From assembly GCA_029243005.1 (NCBI GenBank), contig JAQWSV010000019.1, positions 1-40,710 on the forward strand: a stretch of 40,710 nt of DNA. Direction: 5' to 3'. Position numbers and translations under genes: made by a program. The stretch is from Woeseiaceae bacterium. Its GTDB lineage: Bacteria; Pseudomonadota; Gammaproteobacteria; Steroidobacterales; Woeseiaceae. Shown piece by piece: positions 1 through 23,597 of this stretch. The notes beneath the pieces are model-generated. The model did no database searches. It was not told the DNA's origin and saw only the letters and a list, made by a program, of their open reading frames with translations. Every line of letters starts with the position of its first letter. The stretch's first letter is position 1.

Positions 1-180
1 CCTATAGGACACCGGCAGCGCCGCGATGAAGGCATACCGGTGCTGATGAAGAAATTTGAAACGAGCGTGTCCTGTAAACTGCAGCAAGGTCAGTGGCGGG
101 TACTGCGTGAAGCTTCGACCGACCGTGACAAACTACAAGCAATGCCGGTGGACGATTTCATGGCACTGTTGGTCGCCTGA
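1..180 (+). CDS. C-terminal end of an unrecognised protein (5' partial)
   Basis: An open frame runs in from the left edge and ends with TGA at 178-180, giving the last 59 residues of a protein. The tail is charged and ends in a hydrophobic stretch (MPVDDFMALLVA). I do not recognise the family. It does not resemble the C-terminus of MnmG or MnmE, the usual neighbours upstream of rsmG in gammaproteobacteria. The next gene starts 28 bases later on the same strand, so the two may be co-transcribed. Confidence 0.55.
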   Translation, partial: PIGHRQRRDEGIPVLMKKFETSVSCKLQQGQWRVLREASTDRDKLQAMPVDDFMALLVA

Positions 181-207
181 TTTGGACACGACGATAAGAG
201 GGTGGGC

Positions 208-2184
208 ATGAGCAAATACACGATCCCTTTTCTGATGGCGGCGAGCCTTGTTGCGATATCGGCGCTCGCTGCCGCTCCGGTCACCACGACGGCGAACAAC
301 GGAAACCTTGTCATGGAAGACATTCCTGACATTCCGGCCGAAATCGTCAACGACCTGAATCGCTATCAGAATGTGCGTTCCGCGAGTTTTCGCGAGTGGA
401 CCGAAGATGGTCGCGGCATCTACATCTCGACGCGGTTTGGTGACGTCAGCCAGATTCACCGTGTTGAAATGGCGGGCGGCGCCCGAACACAGGTTACTTT
501 CTATAATGAACCGATAGGTGGCGTGACGCGCCAGCCGGGCGGGCGCAACATTATCTTCACTCGAGATGCCGGCGGCAGCGAATTCAGCCAGGTGTTCTTG
601 CTCGATCCCATTGACGGCAGGACGACGATGCTGACCGATGGCGAGTCGCGAAATCGCAGCGTGCAATGGGATCGTAATGGTCGCCGAATCGTGTATACCA
701 GCACAGCGCGTAACGGTCGCTCGAATGATGTCTGGATGATGGATCCGGAGGACAACGGTAGCGCTGAAGTGGTCCTTGAGTCACCGGATGGTTCGAGCTG
801 GAGCGCGACTGAGTTCAACGCCAGTGGCACTCGTGTCCTCGTTTCCAACTATGTCAGCATTGCGGACTCGCGGGTCAATCTGCTGGACCTCGATACCGGC
901 ACAGTCACGTTGCTGGCCGGCGGTGATGACAGCCGCAGCGCGAATTTCGCATTCGCGTTCGACGATGCCAACGACGGCTTTTGGTTTGTTACTGACCAGG
1001 GCAGCGAGTTTCGCCAGCTCGCTTGGCAGGCGGCAGAGCCTGGTGCAGAACCGGAGATCCTGACCGGGGACATTCTCTGGGACATTGGTGCTGGTGCTAT
1101 TAGCAACGATCGGACGAGATTGGTGTTCACAGCCAATGAAGGCGGTATGTCACGGGTCTACTTGATGGACACGGATACACACGAGTATCGTGCCGTCGAC
1201 AACATTCCCACTGGCCTGGCTTTCGGTTTCGAGTTCAGCCCGGACGACAGCCAGCTCGCCATGACCCTGAACACGTCGACAACACCGAGCGACACGTTTG
1301 TGCTGGAGCTTGGTGATGACGCGCTGGCATACGGCGAACTCGTTCGCTGGACCACCAGCGAAGTCGGTGGACTAAACACTTCAGTGTTCCGCGCGCCGGA
1401 GCTTGTCAGCTTTCCGACGTTCGACCAGGTTTATGGCGAGCCTCGACAGATTCCGGCCTGGGTCTACAAGCCGGCCGGTGCAGGACCGTTTCCTGTCGTT
1501 GTCTCGATTCACGGCGGGCCGGAAGGACAGTCGCGACCCGGGTTCTCCAGCGTCTACCAAATGTGGCTGGACAAGCTTGGTGTGGCGGTCGTCATACCCA
1601 ATGTGCGCGGTTCGACGGGCTATGGTAAGACCTACCTGTCGCTCGACAATGGCTTCAAGCGCGAGGATTCGGTTCGCGACATCGGTGCGCTTCTCGACTG
1701 GATAGAAACGGAGCCGTCGCTCGACCAGGATCGCGTCGCGGTCTTCGGTGGCAGCTACGGCGGCTACATGGTGCTGGCCAGTTCCTTCCACTATAGCGAT
1801 CGCCTGAAGGCAGCTGTGGATATCGTGGGTATCTCCAACTTTGTCACTTTTCTGGAAAACACTCAGGATTACCGACGCGACCTGCGACGGGTTGAGTACG
1901 GTGACGAGCGCGACCCGGCGATGCGCGCGTACCTGGAGCGCATTGCGCCGGTTAATCACGTCGACAAAATTCGGCATCCTATGCTGATTGTGCAGGGCGA
2001 AAACGATCCGCGCGTACCGGTAACGGAATCCGAACAGGTTGTCGCCGCGCTGCGGGAGGCAGGTCAGGCGGTGTGGTACATGAACGCGCTGAACGAAGGA
2101 CACGGCTACCGGAAGAAGGAGAACCGGGACATCTACCAGCAGGCGACTATTTTGTTCCTGAGAGAGCACTTGGTCGGCCCGTAA
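208..2184 (+). CDS. Exported S9 family peptidase (prolyl oligopeptidase/acylaminoacyl peptidase type)
   Basis: The gene encodes 658 residues. An N-terminal signal peptide (hydrophobic segment about 5-22, ending near ALAAAP) suggests export to the periplasm. Residues about 50-370 look like the WD40/TolB-like beta-propeller of S9 enzymes, and the C-terminal third is an alpha/beta hydrolase. Family position points to the catalytic triad Ser516 in GGSYGGYM, Asp600 in GENDPRVP and His632 in NEGHGY. Such enzymes cut short peptides, often after proline or at acylated N-termini. I chose ATG 208 over GTG 202 because the purine-rich AAGAGGG sits at the right distance for 208. The next gene, rsmG, begins about 70 bases downstream. 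Confidence 0.9.
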   Translation: MSKYTIPFLMAASLVAISALAAAPVTTTANNGNLVMEDIPDIPAEIVNDLNRYQNVRSASFREWTEDGRGIYISTRFGDVSQIHRVEMAGGARTQVTFYNEPIGGVTRQPGGRNIIFTRDAGGSEFSQVFLLDPIDGRTTMLTDGESRNRSVQWDRNGRRIVYTSTARNGRSNDVWMMDPEDNGSAEVVLESPDGSSWSATEFNASGTRVLVSNYVSIADSRVNLLDLDTGTVTLLAGGDDSRSANFAFAFDDANDGFWFVTDQGSEFRQLAWQAAEPGAEPEILTGDILWDIGAGAISNDRTRLVFTANEGGMSRVYLMDTDTHEYRAVDNIPTGLAFGFEFSPDDSQLAMTLNTSTTPSDTFVLELGDDALAYGELVRWTTSEVGGLNTSVFRAPELVSFPTFDQVYGEPRQIPAWVYKPAGAGPFPVVVSIHGGPEGQSRPGFSSVYQMWLDKLGVAVVIPNVRGSTGYGKTYLSLDNGFKREDSVRDIGALLDWIETEPSLDQDRVAVFGGSYGGYMVLASSFHYSDRLKAAVDIVGISNFVTFLENTQDYRRDLRRVEYGDERDPAMRAYLERIAPVNHVDKIRHPMLIVQGENDPRVPVTESEQVVAALREAGQAVWYMNALNEGHGYRKKENRDIYQQATILFLREHLVGP

Positions 2185-2252
2185 TTCCGTCAAAAATAGG
2201 TATCAGAGCCTGGCCGCGAGCTGGTTTCACTGTGCTCGGTTACACTATCGTC

Positions 2253-2891
2253 GTGGAAGGAGTCCAGGACAACATTCAAAAGGGCGTTGCTGATTTGGGT
2301 CAGGCGCTCGACGCGGACACGTGCGCGCACCTGGCGATCCTCCTTAATGAACTCGAGCGCTGGAATCGACGCATCAATCTGACCGCAATACGCAATATCG
2401 GTGAAATGGTCGGTGGCCATGTACTGGACAGCCTAGCGGCCCGTCCAGCATTGCGCGGATCGGTGGTGCTGGATATCGGTACAGGGGCAGGATTTCCCGG
2501 CCTTCCGCTGGCAATCGCTGAGCCGGCAACAGAATTCGTGCTGCTAGACAGCAATGGAAAGAAGATCAGTTTCGTCAATCACATCATTGCTGAACTGGGC
2601 TTGAGGAACGTGGAGGCCGTCAAAGCACGCGCAGAGGACTATGCACCCGGCAAACGCTTTGATACCGTGATTGCCCGGGCCCTAGCAACGGTACCGCGAT
2701 TGGTGGCGCTAGCCGCCGACCTGATCGGAGAGGACGGTCAGTTGCTGGCGCTCAAAGGGAAGTATCCGGCCGAAGAGCTGGAGTCGATAACAACATTAGC
2801 CCAATGGGAAGTCACAGTGACGCCTATAGCAGTGCCAGGCCTCGAAGCACATGCGCGTCACCTCGTGAGCCTGCAAAGGAAGAAGGCGTAA
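2253..2891 (+). CDS. rsmG: 16S rRNA (guanine527-N7)-methyltransferase RsmG
   Basis: RsmG methylates N7 of G527 in 16S rRNA using S-adenosylmethionine. The SAM-binding motif VLDIGTGAGFPGLPLAI and the family blocks around NLTAIRN and HVLDSLAARPA are present. The frame is open far upstream into the S9 gene, so the start is uncertain. GTG 2253 gives 212 residues, close to the usual 205-215. GTG 2232 (219 residues) and TTG 2295 (198 residues, preceded by AAAAGGG) are alternatives. No ATG fits. The gene is four bases from parA, in the classic rsmG-parA-parB order of the origin-proximal region. Confidence 0.88.
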   Translation: MEGVQDNIQKGVADLGQALDADTCAHLAILLNELERWNRRINLTAIRNIGEMVGGHVLDSLAARPALRGSVVLDIGTGAGFPGLPLAIAEPATEFVLLDSNGKKISFVNHIIAELGLRNVEAVKARAEDYAPGKRFDTVIARALATVPRLVALAADLIGEDGQLLALKGKYPAEELESITTLAQWEVTVTPIAVPGLEAHARHLVSLQRKKA

Positions 2892-2895
2892 GCAA

Positions 2896-3681
2896 ATGGC
2901 GCGAATAATTGCCATTGCAAATCAGAAAGGTGGTGTCGGAAAGACGACGACCTGCGTTAACCTCGCGGCGTCGCTGGCCGCGACGCAGCGCCGTGTATTG
3001 CTGATCGATCTCGACCCCCAGGGCAATGCAACAATGGGTTGTGGCATCGACAAGATGGCGCTGGAACGCACCAGTTGCGACGTGTTGCTCGGAGATGCGG
3101 ACGCCGCGGACACAATCCTGTCCACCCCGGAAGGTGACTTTGCAGTCATGCCGGGCAACGACGACCTGACCCTGGCAGAGGTCAGGCTCTTGCAGGAGAT
3201 CGGTCGGGAGCTGAAGCTCCGCAAGGCACTGCAGCCGGTCGCTGGCATGTATGACTTCATCCTGATTGATTGCCCGCCCTCAATAAACATGTTGACGGTG
3301 AATGCGCTGACTGCGGCGGACGGCGTCCTGATTCCGATGCAGTGCGAGTACTATGCATTGGAAGGGCTGAGTGCCCTGCTCAATACCGTCGAACAGGTCC
3401 GCGATTCAGTTAACCCGGGGCTCTATGTCTACGGCCTTTTGCGAACGATGGTTGACCCGCGCATCAACCTGTCGAACGAGGTTTCGGAGCAGTTGATCAA
3501 CCATTTTGATGACAAAGTATTCCGCACTGTGGTGCCGCGTAATGTTCGCTTGGCGGAGGCGCCCAGTTTCGGTCGTCCAGTCCTTTATCACGACCGCAAA
3601 TCCCGCGGCGCACTGGCCTATCTTGCTTTGGCGGGTGAGGTGCTGCGACGTGAAGATGAACGAATGGCCGTGACGCACTAG
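2896..3681 (+). CDS. parA: Chromosome partitioning ATPase ParA (Soj)
   Basis: This 261-residue P-loop ATPase works with ParB to segregate the origin region. The deviant Walker A motif KGGVGKTT is at residues 11-18, with the signature lysine before GGVGKT. The Walker B-like LIDLDPQGN follows near residue 37. DCPPSINMLTVNAL is the expected downstream motif. ATG 2896 gives the standard MARIIAIANQKGG N-terminus, and the AAGGAAG stretch at the end of rsmG serves as ribosome binding site. parB follows 25 bases later. Confidence 0.96.
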   Translation: MARIIAIANQKGGVGKTTTCVNLAASLAATQRRVLLIDLDPQGNATMGCGIDKMALERTSCDVLLGDADAADTILSTPEGDFAVMPGNDDLTLAEVRLLQEIGRELKLRKALQPVAGMYDFILIDCPPSINMLTVNALTAADGVLIPMQCEYYALEGLSALLNTVEQVRDSVNPGLYVYGLLRTMVDPRINLSNEVSEQLINHFDDKVFRTVVPRNVRLAEAPSFGRPVLYHDRKSRGALAYLALAGEVLRREDERMAVTH

Positions 3682-3706
3682 GCTGGACGGATTTAGACAA
3701 CCCACG

Positions 3707-4594
3707 ATGACAAAGAAGAAAAGACTCGGCCGCGGCCTCGATGCCCTATTATCCAAACCTGTCGCGGAAACGATGGCGGTGACCGGCGCACCGGAAGAAG
3801 CAGACGGTCTGCAGAATATCCCGGTTGAATTGTTGCAGCGCGGGCAGTACCAGCCGCGCGTCGACATGCGCCAAGACACGCTGGAGGAACTCGCCAGGTC
3901 GATCCAGGTGCAGGGCGTGGTGCAGCCGATCGTTGCCCGCCCGATCAAGAGGACGGGCGAGACCCAGCGCTACGAGATTGTCGCTGGCGAGCGTCGTTGG
4001 CGTGCTGCTCAAATGGCCGGTCTGCATGAGATTCCAGCCGTTGTTCGAGCTATTCCGGACGAATCCGCGATCGCTATGTCGCTCATCGAGAACATCCAAC
4101 GCGAGGATCTGAATCCGCTGGAAGAAGCTCGCGCGCTCGATCGACTGATTCGGGAATTCGACTTGAAGCACCAACAGGCCGCCGATGCGGTGGGGCGTTC
4201 GCGCGCCAGCGTCAGCAATCTCCTGCGTTTGCTCGAGCTCTCCGACAAGGTGAGGCCAATGCTCGAGTCAAGAGATCTGGAAATGGGTCACGCACGTGCA
4301 CTGCTTGCGATCATCAATGAAACACAGCAATACGATGCGGCGCGCCAGGTAGTGAAAGGCGGGTTGTCGGTTCGCGCGACAGAGCGACTCGTTCGTCGCA
4401 TGACGGCAGCTCCCGGCAAAACCAAAAAGAGCGCGGCTGCAAAGGACAAGGATATCCAGCGCCTGGAAATGGACATGTCCGATAAGATCGGTGCGAAAGT
4501 TCGCATAGATCATTCAAAGAGTGGCAGTGGCAAGCTGGTAATTGCCTATAACAGCCTCGATGAGCTGGACGGTATTCTCAAGCATATCAAATAG
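3707..4594 (+). CDS. parB: Chromosome partitioning protein ParB (Spo0J)
   Basis: The 295-residue ParB begins with the short basic LGRGLDALL peptide that stimulates ParA ATPase. It then has the CTP-binding ParB/Srx fold with GERRWRAAQ and the ENIQRED box. A helix-turn-helix (about AADAVGRSRASVSNLL) follows for parS recognition, and the C-terminal dimerisation region ends at LDELDGILKHIK. ParB spreads from parS sites and recruits ParA and SMC. I found no match to the parS consensus (TGTTTCACGTGAAACA) in this window, so its sites must be elsewhere or diverged. The length is normal for the family. Confidence 0.96.
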   Translation: MTKKKRLGRGLDALLSKPVAETMAVTGAPEEADGLQNIPVELLQRGQYQPRVDMRQDTLEELARSIQVQGVVQPIVARPIKRTGETQRYEIVAGERRWRAAQMAGLHEIPAVVRAIPDESAIAMSLIENIQREDLNPLEEARALDRLIREFDLKHQQAADAVGRSRASVSNLLRLLELSDKVRPMLESRDLEMGHARALLAIINETQQYDAARQVVKGGLSVRATERLVRRMTAAPGKTKKSAAAKDKDIQRLEMDMSDKIGAKVRIDHSKSGSGKLVIAYNSLDELDGILKHIK

Positions 4595-21026: not shown

Positions 21027-22859
21027 ATGTGTGGAATCGTCGGTGCCGTTGCCGAAAGAGACGTCGTTCCGATATTGATGGATGGCCTTCGCCGCCTCGA
21101 ATATCGCGGCTACGACTCCGCCGGTATTGCTATTCGTAATGGAGATGACGTCAATCGCCTGAGACGTGTCGGCAAGGTCCAGGAGTTGCAGAACGCGCTC
21201 GACGAAAGCCCACTGCAAGGTCACATCGGCATTTCTCACACGCGTTGGGCAACGCATGGCGTGCCGAATGAAGCGAACGCGCACCCACATCTTTCCGTTA
21301 ATGACGTCTCGGTCGTTCATAACGGGATCATCGAGAATTTCGAGGAACTGAAAGAAAAGCTTTCAGGGCTCGGCTACACGTTTGAATCTGAAACCGACAC
21401 AGAAGTCGTTGCCCACGCCATCCATCATCGTCTGAAGGACTCCGGTGATCTCGCCCAGGCAGTTCGTGAGACGGTTGCCGAACTGGAAGGTGCGTACGCG
21501 CTCGCGGTCATGAGCGTGACCGATCCGGACCGGCTGATCATTGCGCGGGTCGGTTGTCCTGCAATCGTAGGCGTAGGTGAGGGTGAAAACTTCGTTGCGA
21601 GCGACGTCGCTGCGTTGTTGCCGGTAACGCGCAACTACCAGATTCTGGAAGAGGGCGACATCGCCGTCGTCGATCTCACATCGATCACAATTTACGATAA
21701 AGACGGCAATGAGGCGGACCGCCCTGTCATCGAAAGTGAACTGACGGCAGATGCTGCCGAACGTGGTGACTTCGGTCACTACATGCAGAAGGAGATTCAC
21801 GAGCAGGCTAAAGCTGTCGCGCATACTCTCGAAGAGCGAACTGCGAATGGCAAAGTGCTCGACGCGTCATTTGGCCCGCAGGCAATAGACGCGCTCGATG
21901 CTACCCGGGGCGTGCATATTGTCGCCTGCGGCACGAGTTTTCATGCGGGCCTTATTGCTCGCTACTGGATCGAGGACTTGTGCGGTCTCCCCTGCAGTGT
22001 CGAGATTGCGAGCGAGTATCGTTATCGCTCCCCGGTGGTTCCGGAGAACACGCTTTTTGTCACGATCAGCCAGTCTGGCGAGACGGCTGACACGTTGGCT
22101 GCCTTGCGTGCCGCGAAAGAGCGCGACTACGAGTCCACCCTGGTGATCTGCAACGTGCCGGAGAGCTCGCTGGTGCGCGAATCCGAACTCGTCATGATGA
22201 CGCGGGCAGGCCAAGAGATTGGTGTTGCCTCGACCAAGGCGTTCACGACCCAGTTGGCGGCGCTCGCGTTGCTGACCGTGTCGCTGGCGCGGCGCAATGG
22301 ACTATCCGCCGAAGACGAAGAAACCTTGGTCAACCAGCTGAACGAACTGCCCGCCCTGATCGAGCAGGTTCTAATGCTGGATTCGGCTATCGAGGTGCTT
22401 GCGGAGCATTTCGTCAACAAGGACCATGCGCTTTTCCTTGGCCGTGGCGTGCAGAACCCGGTGGCGATGGAAGGTGCGCTGAAACTGAAGGAGATCTCTT
22501 ACATTCATGCGGAAGCATACGCTGCCGGCGAACTGAAGCACGGGCCACTTGCACTCGTGGATGAAAACATGCCGGTCGTCGCAGTTGCGCCGGATGACGA
22601 TCTGCTCGAAAAGCTGAAGAGTAATTTGCACGAAGTTGATGCGCGTGGCGGTGAGTTGTATGTCTTTGCGGATCCGCGTGTGCAGTTTGGTGATCGTGTT
22701 GGCATCAAGACGATGCATATGCCGGCTGCAATCGAAGACTTTCAGGCGCCGATTCTCTACACGATCCCTTTACAATTGCTTGCCTATCACGTTGCCGTCC
22801 AGCGAGGCACGGATGTTGACCAACCCCGCAACCTAGCGAAGTCGGTCACTGTGGAGTAG
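21027..22859 (+). CDS. glmS: Glutamine-fructose-6-phosphate aminotransferase (isomerizing)
   Basis: GlmS (610 residues) makes glucosamine-6-phosphate from fructose-6-phosphate and glutamine. After removal of Met1, Cys2 in MCGIVGAV is the glutaminase nucleophile. The N-terminal class II amidotransferase domain shows HTRWATHGVPNEANAHPH. Two SIS domains follow, including TISQSGETADT and the C-terminal PRNLAKSVTVE. It lies 158 bases after glmU. Its last codons form the conserved attTn7 recognition region. Confidence 0.97.
   Translation: MCGIVGAVAERDVVPILMDGLRRLEYRGYDSAGIAIRNGDDVNRLRRVGKVQELQNALDESPLQGHIGISHTRWATHGVPNEANAHPHLSVNDVSVVHNGIIENFEELKEKLSGLGYTFESETDTEVVAHAIHHRLKDSGDLAQAVRETVAELEGAYALAVMSVTDPDRLIIARVGCPAIVGVGEGENFVASDVAALLPVTRNYQILEEGDIAVVDLTSITIYDKDGNEADRPVIESELTADAAERGDFGHYMQKEIHEQAKAVAHTLEERTANGKVLDASFGPQAIDALDATRGVHIVACGTSFHAGLIARYWIEDLCGLPCSVEIASEYRYRSPVVPENTLFVTISQSGETADTLAALRAAKERDYESTLVICNVPESSLVRESELVMMTRAGQEIGVASTKAFTTQLAALALLTVSLARRNGLSAEDEETLVNQLNELPALIEQVLMLDSAIEVLAEHFVNKDHALFLGRGVQNPVAMEGALKLKEISYIHAEAYAAGELKHGPLALVDENMPVVAVAPDDDLLEKLKSNLHEVDARGGELYVFADPRVQFGDRVGIKTMHMPAAIEDFQAPILYTIPLQLLAYHVAVQRGTDVDQPRNLAKSVTVE
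22818..22859 (+). other. attTn7-like sequence at the glmS 3' end
   Basis: The final codons encode PRNLAKSVTVE, the segment that TnsD recognises in Tn7 insertion, which happens some 25 bases beyond the stop. Sequence composition changes sharply just after this point. No Tn7 end repeats or tns genes are visible here. Confidence 0.55.
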
Positions 22860-23415
22860 TTTTGAACAGAGAATTATGAAAATTGTTTATGTAGACATGG
22901 ATAGTGTCTTAGTAAATTTCCAAAGCGGCATCGATGCCTTAACAGAAGAAGAAAGGACGGCATTCAAAGATGACTTAGATGATGTGCCTGGAATATTTTC
23001 AAAGATGAAACCTGTCGACGGTGCAATCGAGGCATATGAAATACTTACAAAACACTTTGATGTTTATATTTTATCTACTGCTCCTTGGAATAATCCTTCC
23101 GCATGGACAGACAAACTCCTATGGGTTCAAAAGCATTTGGGTGATTTAGCACACAAAAGACTCATACTTAGTCACAATAAAAATCTAAATGCTGGAGATT
23201 TTTTAATAGATGACAGAACGGCAAACGGTGCTGGAGAATTTAAGGGTGAGCACATCCATTTTTTGAGTGAAAAATTTAAGAACTGGAATGATGTGCTTAA
23301 TTACTTAATCCCTAATGAGTATCAATGAAAGAAAAATATAAGAAGTTTTATATGATGTTTGATAAGAGATTCAAGAATCTTATTCTCTGTTCAAAAACAC
23401 TCAATGACCGTCGAA
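22860..23415. other. Low-GC island downstream of glmS
   Basis: Composition drops abruptly after glmS. By hand count GC is 26/60 at 22921-22980, 18/60 at 23041-23100 and 18/60 at 23161-23220, against 31/60 at 22381-22440 inside glmS. The island holds the deoxyribonucleotidase gene and a small AT-rich ORF, and ends before the DUF454 gene at 23431. It looks horizontally acquired. The right boundary is approximate. Confidence 0.65.
22876..23328 (+). CDS. 5'(3')-deoxyribonucleotidase family protein (NT5C type, HAD fold)
   Basis: The 150-residue product resembles the cytosolic 5'(3')-deoxyribonucleotidases, which dephosphorylate deoxynucleoside monophosphates. The HAD motif I is VYVDMDSVLVNF (nucleophile Asp in DxD; most relatives have DMDGV). 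Motif II is ILSTAPWNN, the lysine region is HKRLILSHNK, and motif IV is FLIDDRTANGAGEF. Codon use is AT-rich and unlike neighbouring genes, which suggests transfer, possibly from a phage or a low-GC bacterium. It starts 17 bases after glmS. A small ORF overlaps its stop (ATGA). Confidence 0.85.
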   Translation: MKIVYVDMDSVLVNFQSGIDALTEEERTAFKDDLDDVPGIFSKMKPVDGAIEAYEILTKHFDVYILSTAPWNNPSAWTDKLLWVQKHLGDLAHKRLILSHNKNLNAGDFLIDDRTANGAGEFKGEHIHFLSEKFKNWNDVLNYLIPNEYQ

Positions 23416-23597
23416 TAAAGGTAGTTCGCTATGTTCGAAAAAGGCATCCGTCTATTGTGGCTACTTGCCGGATTGCTGTCTGTCGTCGTCGGTGCCATCG
23501 GCGTTGTTTTACCGCTCTTGCCGACGACGCCGTTCTTGCTCGTTGCCGCGTTTGCATTCGCACGTTCATCCGTTCGACTGACCCACTGGTTGCATGA
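23325..23597 (+). CDS. Small AT-rich ORF, probably a truncated passenger gene
   Basis: ATG 23325 overlaps the TGA of the deoxyribonucleotidase gene. The first 33 or so residues are lysine- and phenylalanine-rich (MKEKYKKFYMMFDKRFKNLI) and fit the low-GC island. Beyond about 23425 the frame runs out of phase through the DUF454 gene and is arginine- and cysteine-rich shadow sequence. I read it as the start of an imported gene cut off at the island's right edge, though a coincidental open frame is possible. No family is recognised. Confidence 0.3.
   Translation: MKEKYKKFYMMFDKRFKNLILCSKTLNDRRIKVVRYVRKRHPSIVATCRIAVCRRRCHRRCFTALADDAVLARCRVCIRTFIRSTDPLVA

Follow-up and report, generated by a model that had tools for sequence, protein, structure and literature searches.

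The low-GC island directly behind glmS in the window (the whole 40,710-nucleotide stretch of a Woeseiaceae genome analysed here) is, we suggest with good confidence, a single mobile gene cassette belonging to an integron-like system linked to glmS. The comparison of our full set, 143 cassettes in 51 arrays, showed that the attachment core is the end of glmS, that cassettes lie between successive cores, the first of which is the glmS end, and that most cassettes carry their own complementary arm pair. The term core is used below for the attachment motif TCNRTNACNGTNGARTAR, the glmS 3' end. The system appears to be unrecognised so far, and no description was found in the open-access text searched. 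We hold it to be new in kind, since none of the known families tested has all of its defining features in common with it; its working principle, however, is integron-like.

The glmS gene occupies 21027-22859 and the island starts 1 base 3' of its stop codon. The GC content of 22860-23396 is 33.9%, against a mean of 56.7% (sd 2.4%, minimum 49.9%) for 777 other overlapping 537-bp segments of the contig. An earlier note on this DNA had described a sharp GC drop right after the glmS stop, a deoxyribonucleotidase-like gene, a chopped small ORF and no transposase, and these observations were borne out: the gene lies at 22876-23328 and matches the NT5C profile PF06941 (E 2.7e-15, 57.1 bits, cut-off 24.8), the small ORF lies at 23325-23597, and no transposase was seen in the island. 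The island is a 0.56-kb single-gene cassette with NT5C cargo, with the following parts:

21027-22859, + strand: glmS, the host gene (610-aa ORF), whose last codons are the putative attachment site
22842-22859, + strand: left core, the glmS 3' end TCGGTCACTGTGGAGTAG (from the core motif and the crossover map)
22860-22874, + strand: left arm, a 15-bp inverted repeat (from the inverted-repeat search)
22876-23328, + strand: cargo gene, 5'(3')-deoxyribonucleotidase-like (NT5C), 150 aa (PF06941)
23325-23396, + strand: conserved right-end segment with the start of a small reading frame MKEKYKKFYMMFDKRFKN running into arm and core (DNA identity to locus L180)
23382-23396, - strand: right arm, the inverted copy of the left arm (15-bp stem with the left arm in the modelled circle junction)
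23401-23418, + strand: right core, a displaced glmS-end copy TCAATGACCGTCGAATAA (second exact core match in the genome)

The inverted repeat TTTTGAACAGAGAAT is perfect over 15 bp at the two island ends (22860-22874 and 23382-23396) and grows to 21 nt at 90% identity (22854-22874 and 23382-23402). An arm search allowing 2 mismatches returned 2 matches in the window, both exact, against a mean of 0.05 in shuffles, and the longest separated inverted repeat was 15 versus 14 in 300 mononucleotide shuffles of the region. The right core reads S-M-T-V-E-stop, another glmS 3' end, and has 7 differences from the left core over the 18 positions; the two 15-bp arms, by contrast, have none. In the left core of the window, the left half would be host DNA and the right half (GAGTAG) cassette-derived; in the right core, the left half would be cassette-derived and the right half would be the original host glmS end.

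NT5C proteins strip phosphate from deoxynucleotides. The window copy has DMDSV...DDR motifs, the HAD motifs, that look intact by eye, suggesting that it may be functional, and, judged by its family, it probably trims deoxynucleotide pools. The best 20 phage relatives listed were all from Vibrio phages of ~250 kb, at 62-64% identity. The gene was missing from all 11 same-genus genomes searched and was detected in 1 of the other 48 relatives, at 60% identity. The earlier note had proposed the remnant cargo of a Tn7-like element or a phage-derived gene. The part of this proposal that stands is a horizontal insertion at the glmS 3' end with a phage-like nucleotide gene, backed by the Vibrio phage matches and by the absence of the gene in the same genus; vertical inheritance in close relatives, which the note had named as the contrary outcome, did not come true. 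The Tn7-like part did not survive and is discussed below. DUF454, the gene beyond the island, yielded no empty-site reference among the 11 relatives, being present only in G004 and G007, and in G004 on another contig than the glmS-end core.

The NT5C protein is 93-94% identical in amino acids to the copies in MAGs named Gammaproteobacteria TMED226 and SAR86B. At the DNA level, the TMED226 copy (L008) matches the gene segment at 89.6% identity over 473 bp, and the right end of the window cassette (23324-23395) is 93.1% identical over 72 bp to the right end of another cassette, in array L180 of the SAR86-like genome G579. No single fetched relative spans the whole length of the window cassette. 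The cassette, with parts close to SAR86 and SAR86-like sequences, would have brought in the phage-type deoxyribonucleotidase. A peptide-pattern search of IMG/VR confirmed no NT5C relatives, and the island DNA had no match in plasmids.

The small ORF has no Pfam match. A micro-ORF, M[KE][ED]KYxKFYxxFxKxF, is kept at some right ends (window 23325-23396; L180 before 5596; L221 before 2984 and 4157), and the strict peptide motif is present at 5 of 143 right ends, the window included. An ATG frame enters the SVTVE-like end of the core in frame at 35 of 143 right ends, a count that carries no chance estimate.

Repeated glmS-end cores in SAR86-like and other genomes

Small genes between repeated cores were detected in the TMED226 genome and in the SAR86 MAG bin311, where the series begins behind glmS. 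The 3.3-kb SAR86B contig with an NT5C gene had no exact core. The 197 genomes around the window's (its own included) mostly have at most one core; at least two cores on one strand and one contig were present in 8 of them (read off the table), including the window's genome and the same-genus G005, the glmS of which is 81.0% identical to that of the window. G035, with seven cores spaced 1.0-1.7 kb, is also among the 8.

Two of these 8 genomes differ in kind: second glmS 3' ends of at least 45 bp, free of cassette arms, were observed in G026 (L079: 2005, 6297) and G055 (L080: 2100, 10112), 4.3 and 8 kb behind glmS, respectively. These copies may be relics of large islands of the ordinary type that inserted at this site.

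The order of G482 is called SAR86-like here on the strength of its array glmS proteins, which share 62-90% identity with the glmS of a SAR86B MAG; the low end of this range is non-discriminating, since L125, L077 and L075, from the window's order, reach 60-62%. The identity to the named SAR86B MAG is 82% for the glmS of G482 and 52% for that of the window. In the SAR86-like order, whose genomes as searched are ~1 Mb, the core was detected in 155 of 203 genomes, with at least two same-strand cores in 111, at least three in 57 and up to ten; the count of 111 is per strand of a genome, and in some genomes, such as G570, the copies are on different contigs. A reversed-pattern control reached at least two in 2 of the 203 genomes. 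The array genomes include metagenome assemblies.

According to a class-wide sample of 369 genomes, the non-glmS core pattern is present in 8 and the reversed control in 13 (read off the table), and of these 8 genomes the window's and G482 are real, while G550 has a second core behind glmS with arms that do not pair. The non-glmS core is therefore at background across the class, and the system looks confined to certain lineages, no wider spread being shown.

Forty arrays of the SAR86-like order were chosen from genomes listed with several cores, and 11 other loci were added. The first core is the glmS end in 39 of the 40 fetched SAR86-like arrays, the remaining piece being without glmS. A core was counted at no more than one mismatch, with the exception of one L128 core with two mismatches, which is in all three sets (25, 98 and 143 cassettes); under this rule some of the long cassettes are probably two. 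L117 and L122 are in the 25-cassette test and absent from the sets of 98 and 143, and the single-core loci L118-L121, L124, L126 and L129 yielded no cassette. For a set of 75 cassettes we excluded two cores, one that precedes glmS in L180 and one in L189 that overlaps another; for the set of 143, all cores before glmS or within 40 bp of another core were excluded.

Core halves and cassette arms

The core consists of inverted half-sites, ANTC and GANT, around a 10-bp centre (A-N-TC-NRTNACNGTN-GA-R-TAR). We mapped the crossover by comparing the wobble-position core letters in cassettes shared between genomes, and averages by family were used instead of the raw pairs (38 and 35) because the pairs are not independent. 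The agreement at positions 3/6/9/12/15/18 was as follows:

Left core, 17 families:.35/.25/.59/.74/.94/.88
Right core, 13 families:.85/.95/.30/.55/.49/.43
Chance agreement:.33/.28/.31/.38/.53/.52

In the left core, positions 15 and 18 travel with the cassette, 3 and 6 are at chance and 9 and 12 are intermediate; in the right core, positions 3 and 6 travel with the cassette and 9 to 18 are at or near chance. The right half of a core thus goes with the left end of a cassette and the left half with the right end, and this segregation puts a reciprocal crossover in or close to the centre of the dyad, around positions 7-9; positions 9-12 are mixed. The mixed inheritance of 9-12 would fit, without proving, a several-base staggered cut of the kind that tyrosine recombinases make. 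The two cores of one cassette agree only at background (.36/.39/.28/.38 at the N positions, 143 cassettes), which excludes a target-site duplication, and the segregation of core halves across shared cassettes excludes a Tn7-style insertion.

The arms were analysed separately. The own-arm complementarity sum over 143 cassettes was 1417, against 874.7 (sd 21.7) in permuted sets and a maximum of 959 in 10,000 permutations. Smaller sets gave 258 against a permuted 154.9 (sd 10.1) for 25 cassettes and 752 against 461 (sd 16.5) for 75, with many individual cassettes at background in both of these tests; we tentatively read the background-level pairs as old or merged cassettes. Arms that face each other across 55 array junctions scored at the background level (6.33), while own pairs scored 10.03, so the pairing of a cassette's two ends is preserved and no fixed sequence is. 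The spelling of the arms differs between cassettes, and the arms form no single common family. Their position-by-position composition, taken without gaps over the 26 nt next to the core in 134 left and 131 right arms of unique sequence, has no conserved AAC/GTT boxes. A single base is nearly invariant, the A that stands two bases before the core and is kept in 98% of right arms; the next-best position reaches 73%.

The DNA folding energy was -9.13 for the circle junction, versus -5.02 for the real array junction and -5.26 with a random cassette's arm. Of 98 cassettes, 72 had a lower energy for the circle junction than for the real array junction (p 2e-11); in the other 26 the circle junction was no more stable, and these too we tentatively read as old or merged cassettes. 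Core plus arm matched no viral contig in IMG/VR; the core alone matched 14 stretches, 12 of which are two repeated sequences, and none looks arm-like by eye.

Based on these data, we propose that a cassette would excise as a small circle with the junction right arm - core - left arm, which would fold into a hairpin with the core in the loop. A recombinase acting in trans would pair this hairpin with a target core, either the glmS end or one further along the array, and exchange strands in the core centre. The integration would restore the glmS C-terminus (SVTVE-stop) and push the old end outward. The likeliest enzyme class would be a tyrosine recombinase tolerant of mismatches at wobble positions.

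We lean towards the broader view that this is a second, independent invention of the gene-cassette principle: single-gene circles with structure-defined hairpin sites, loaded by a trans-acting recombinase (perhaps host XerC/D) into the last codons of an essential gene, would be a main gene-capture platform of SAR86, leaking into neighbouring Gammaproteobacteria including the host of the window. In the SAR86-like order, over half of the genomes have repeated glmS-end cores, and the arrays that were read hold varied cassettes at one fixed address. SAR86 is one of the most abundant surface-ocean lineages. If this view is true, a platform of exchange comparable to integrons moves restriction-modification, nucleotide and stress genes among ocean bacteria, and it is easily overlooked because its sites resemble the glmS end. 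The core and hairpin system could yield a small site-specific integration tool, and it poses a sharp question: which enzyme recombines a wobble-tolerant core within a cassette-specific hairpin.

Candidate recombinases and alternative explanations

No tyrosine recombinase was detected in the arrays: 58 phmmer queries from these genomes had 0 matches among 784 frames of the 51 arrays. In the control, XerC/D-like frames were found by 50-51 other queries, and the most divergent ones by one to four. The whole-genome PF00589 search, which covered 20 of the 51 arrays, likewise had no match within an array. At 90% completeness or more, the SAR86-like order is represented by 40 genomes: exactly two XerC/D-size tyrosine recombinases are present in 32 of them, one in 1, and three or four matches in 7; among the 23 near-complete genomes with at least two cores, 18 have at most two, of XerC/D size. 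G482 and G062 have only two Xer-size tyrosine recombinases each. Outside this order, a third or further match was found in 8 of the 11 genomes searched.

XerC/XerD is a weak candidate, because most near-complete SAR86-like array genomes encode no other tyrosine recombinase. The enzyme would be XerC/D, a protein from a different class, or one that a mobile helper brings in; we favour, on a roughly even balance, a tyrosine recombinase acting in trans. The third recombinases of the 7 genomes were rejected as not general.

A divergent phage-integrase-like protein of ~424 aa is present at L155-L159, in five genomes of one family (G192, G187, G134, G178 and G048). Its chromosomal place is fixed, with a short-chain dehydrogenase gene on one side and a zinc alcohol dehydrogenase gene on the other (both named by eye). 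It matches PF00589 with 31.7 bits and has K for the first catalytic R (TGLKKSD, by eye). It is perhaps a domesticated integrase; as the enzyme it was rejected, since it seems to be without the first catalytic arginine and is not general. Small proteins with a serine-recombinase-like helix-turn-helix were also observed in or beside cassettes, three times in the first cassette behind glmS (L181:5133-5486 and L193:4552-5010, both in array orientation, L187:6488-6883, L190:4589-4951, L076 and L122). One of the two tried matched PF07508 at E 0.0044, below the cut-off, and six loci found by motif are too few for the enzyme.

It is rather unlikely that the cassettes are satellites, that is, deletion derivatives moved by the integrase of a helper, either an island or a phage, with its attachment site at the glmS 3' end. 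Integration at a 3' end with a displaced copy of the gene end is typical of tyrosine-integrase islands, and the long second glmS-end copies of G026 and G055, 4.3 and 8 kb away, agree with such islands at this site. Tyrosine-integrase islands at gene 3' ends are described for tRNA genes in PMC4383910, and SGI1 at trmE is described, in PMC8409611, as a site-specific island at a gene 3' end. The glmS cassettes are like SGI1-type islands in that integration is in the last codons, the element restores the gene end and the old end is displaced. They differ in being 0.1-4 kb, arrayed and bounded by element-specific inverted arms, with no integrase gene found. The integrase-bearing member that the satellites would need was not found by the 58 queries in 784 frames of 51 arrays or by PF00589 in 20 arrays, the arms vary per cassette, unlike the sites of one integrase, and no viral contig has core plus arm. 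In the open-access literature searched, glmS was not met as a target of 3'-end islands.

Exchange by the host XerC/XerD, as filamentous phages do, is in our estimate unlikely. CTX-type filamentous phages integrate by XerCD through a folded attP, a hairpin attachment site, and the cassettes resemble them in the hairpin attachment site on a small circle, the use of a host enzyme being a candidate only. An enzyme borrowed from the host in the same way would explain the missing recombinase, and the counts of tyrosine recombinases, no more than two in 33 of the 40 near-complete genomes and in 18 of the 23 with arrays, are consistent with it. However, the target is glmS and not dif, the core does not appear to resemble dif, and the arms are too variable for fixed Xer half-sites.

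The preferred glmS-linked system has to be distinguished from an ordinary integron without an integrase (CALIN), with attC cassettes that happen to sit behind glmS, which we consider very improbable. The attC sites have the R''/R' boxes RYYYAAC ... GTTRRRY. Integron arrays likewise have small, often one-gene cassettes with a same-strand bias, varied cargo that includes restriction-modification genes, and variable sites that form hairpins; attC sites share little sequence yet fold, as described in PMC8946536. In the glmS arrays, however, the palindrome is split between the two ends of a cassette and is not whole at the 3' end, the 26-nt arms have no AAC/GTT boxes by ungapped composition, the conserved centre is supplied by the last codons of glmS, an essential gene, and the crossover is near the dyad centre. 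No integrase was found beside an array, and within the SAR86-like order the tyrosine-recombinase counts give no sign of an integron integrase: 33 of the 40 near-complete genomes have two or fewer, and so do 18 of the 23 that carry arrays, with proteins of XerC/D size.

We give still less weight to a transposase-free mini-transposon (a MITE or a mobile insertion cassette) that duplicated the glmS end as its target site. MITEs and mobile insertion cassettes are small, transposase-free and bounded by inverted repeats, the latter with a passenger gene, and the glmS cassettes share this form of a small element with terminal inverted repeats and a cargo gene. The cassettes are without a target-site duplication or a common end family: the flanking 18-mers of the window differ at 7 positions, yet the 15-bp arms are perfect, the left and right cores agree at background over 143 cassettes, and the arms are not one family.

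A remnant cargo of a Tn7-like transposon at attTn7, the source suggested in the earlier note, is hardly credible: the address is the same, since the Tn7 targeting protein likewise reads the conserved glmS codons, but Tn7 inserts some 25 bp beyond the glmS stop and the island is inserted at the stop codon between two non-identical glmS-end copies, its ends differ from cassette to cassette, the flanking cores agree at chance only and exchange reciprocally and site-specifically, not by transposition, and the island shows only NT5C and the small ORF.

Cassette contents and sharing between genomes

The cassettes have a median length of 812 bp (interquartile range 486-1281, range 83-4169, n=143). 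Exactly one ORF of at least 60 aa is present in 82 of the 143 and none in 10, and 187 of 214 ORFs have the same orientation as glmS. The 193 ORFs of at least 80 aa form 128 families, of which 23 recur across arrays. The domain scan of one representative per family (128 of 128), with the results taken from the 25 most-matched families of each library, detected DNA methylases, an MvaI/BcnI restriction endonuclease, Vsr, an SRA domain and HNH nucleases among the cargo, along with methionine sulfoxide reductases, MORN repeats and short-chain dehydrogenases. An MvaI/BcnI-type restriction gene with a methylase and a type III-like helicase are carried in glmS cassettes at L178:5608-7146 and L191:4274-8351, and further methylase- or Vsr-like genes were seen by eye in the L193 and L195 cassettes and at L127:8969-9836.

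At least one cassette is common to two bacterial orders, with the identity running from core to core. The L177_6914 cassette of the SAR86-like order and the L076_582 cassette of G187, from the window's order, are 91.3% identical over 483 bp, and the match runs from the core start to 11 bp past the far core; the product is presumably a DUF805-like protein. Eleven cassette pairs match end to end in a single alignment. One cassette is present in three genomes (L180, L185 and L227) at 96-98% identity, in the fourth, second and fourth places of the arrays. From these comparisons we infer that cassettes probably move.

A leader of ~150-200 nt is common to cassettes of mostly different cargo, across bacterial orders. 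It was observed in eleven cassettes of the set of 98 plus one more locus, with copies at:

L074: 3547-3740, 6394-6590 and 8635-8830
L116: 8883-9070
L129 and L084: behind glmS

A piece of the leader region had no DNA match in phages, the leader had none in IMG/VR, and an Rfam scan of seven array loci gave no match. The leader contains two inverted repeats, a short GC-rich one close to its beginning (CCTCGCATTCTGCGGG) and one of 8 bp (AAGTCATA...TATGACTT), and it could be a promoter or a regulatory RNA that travels with the cassettes.
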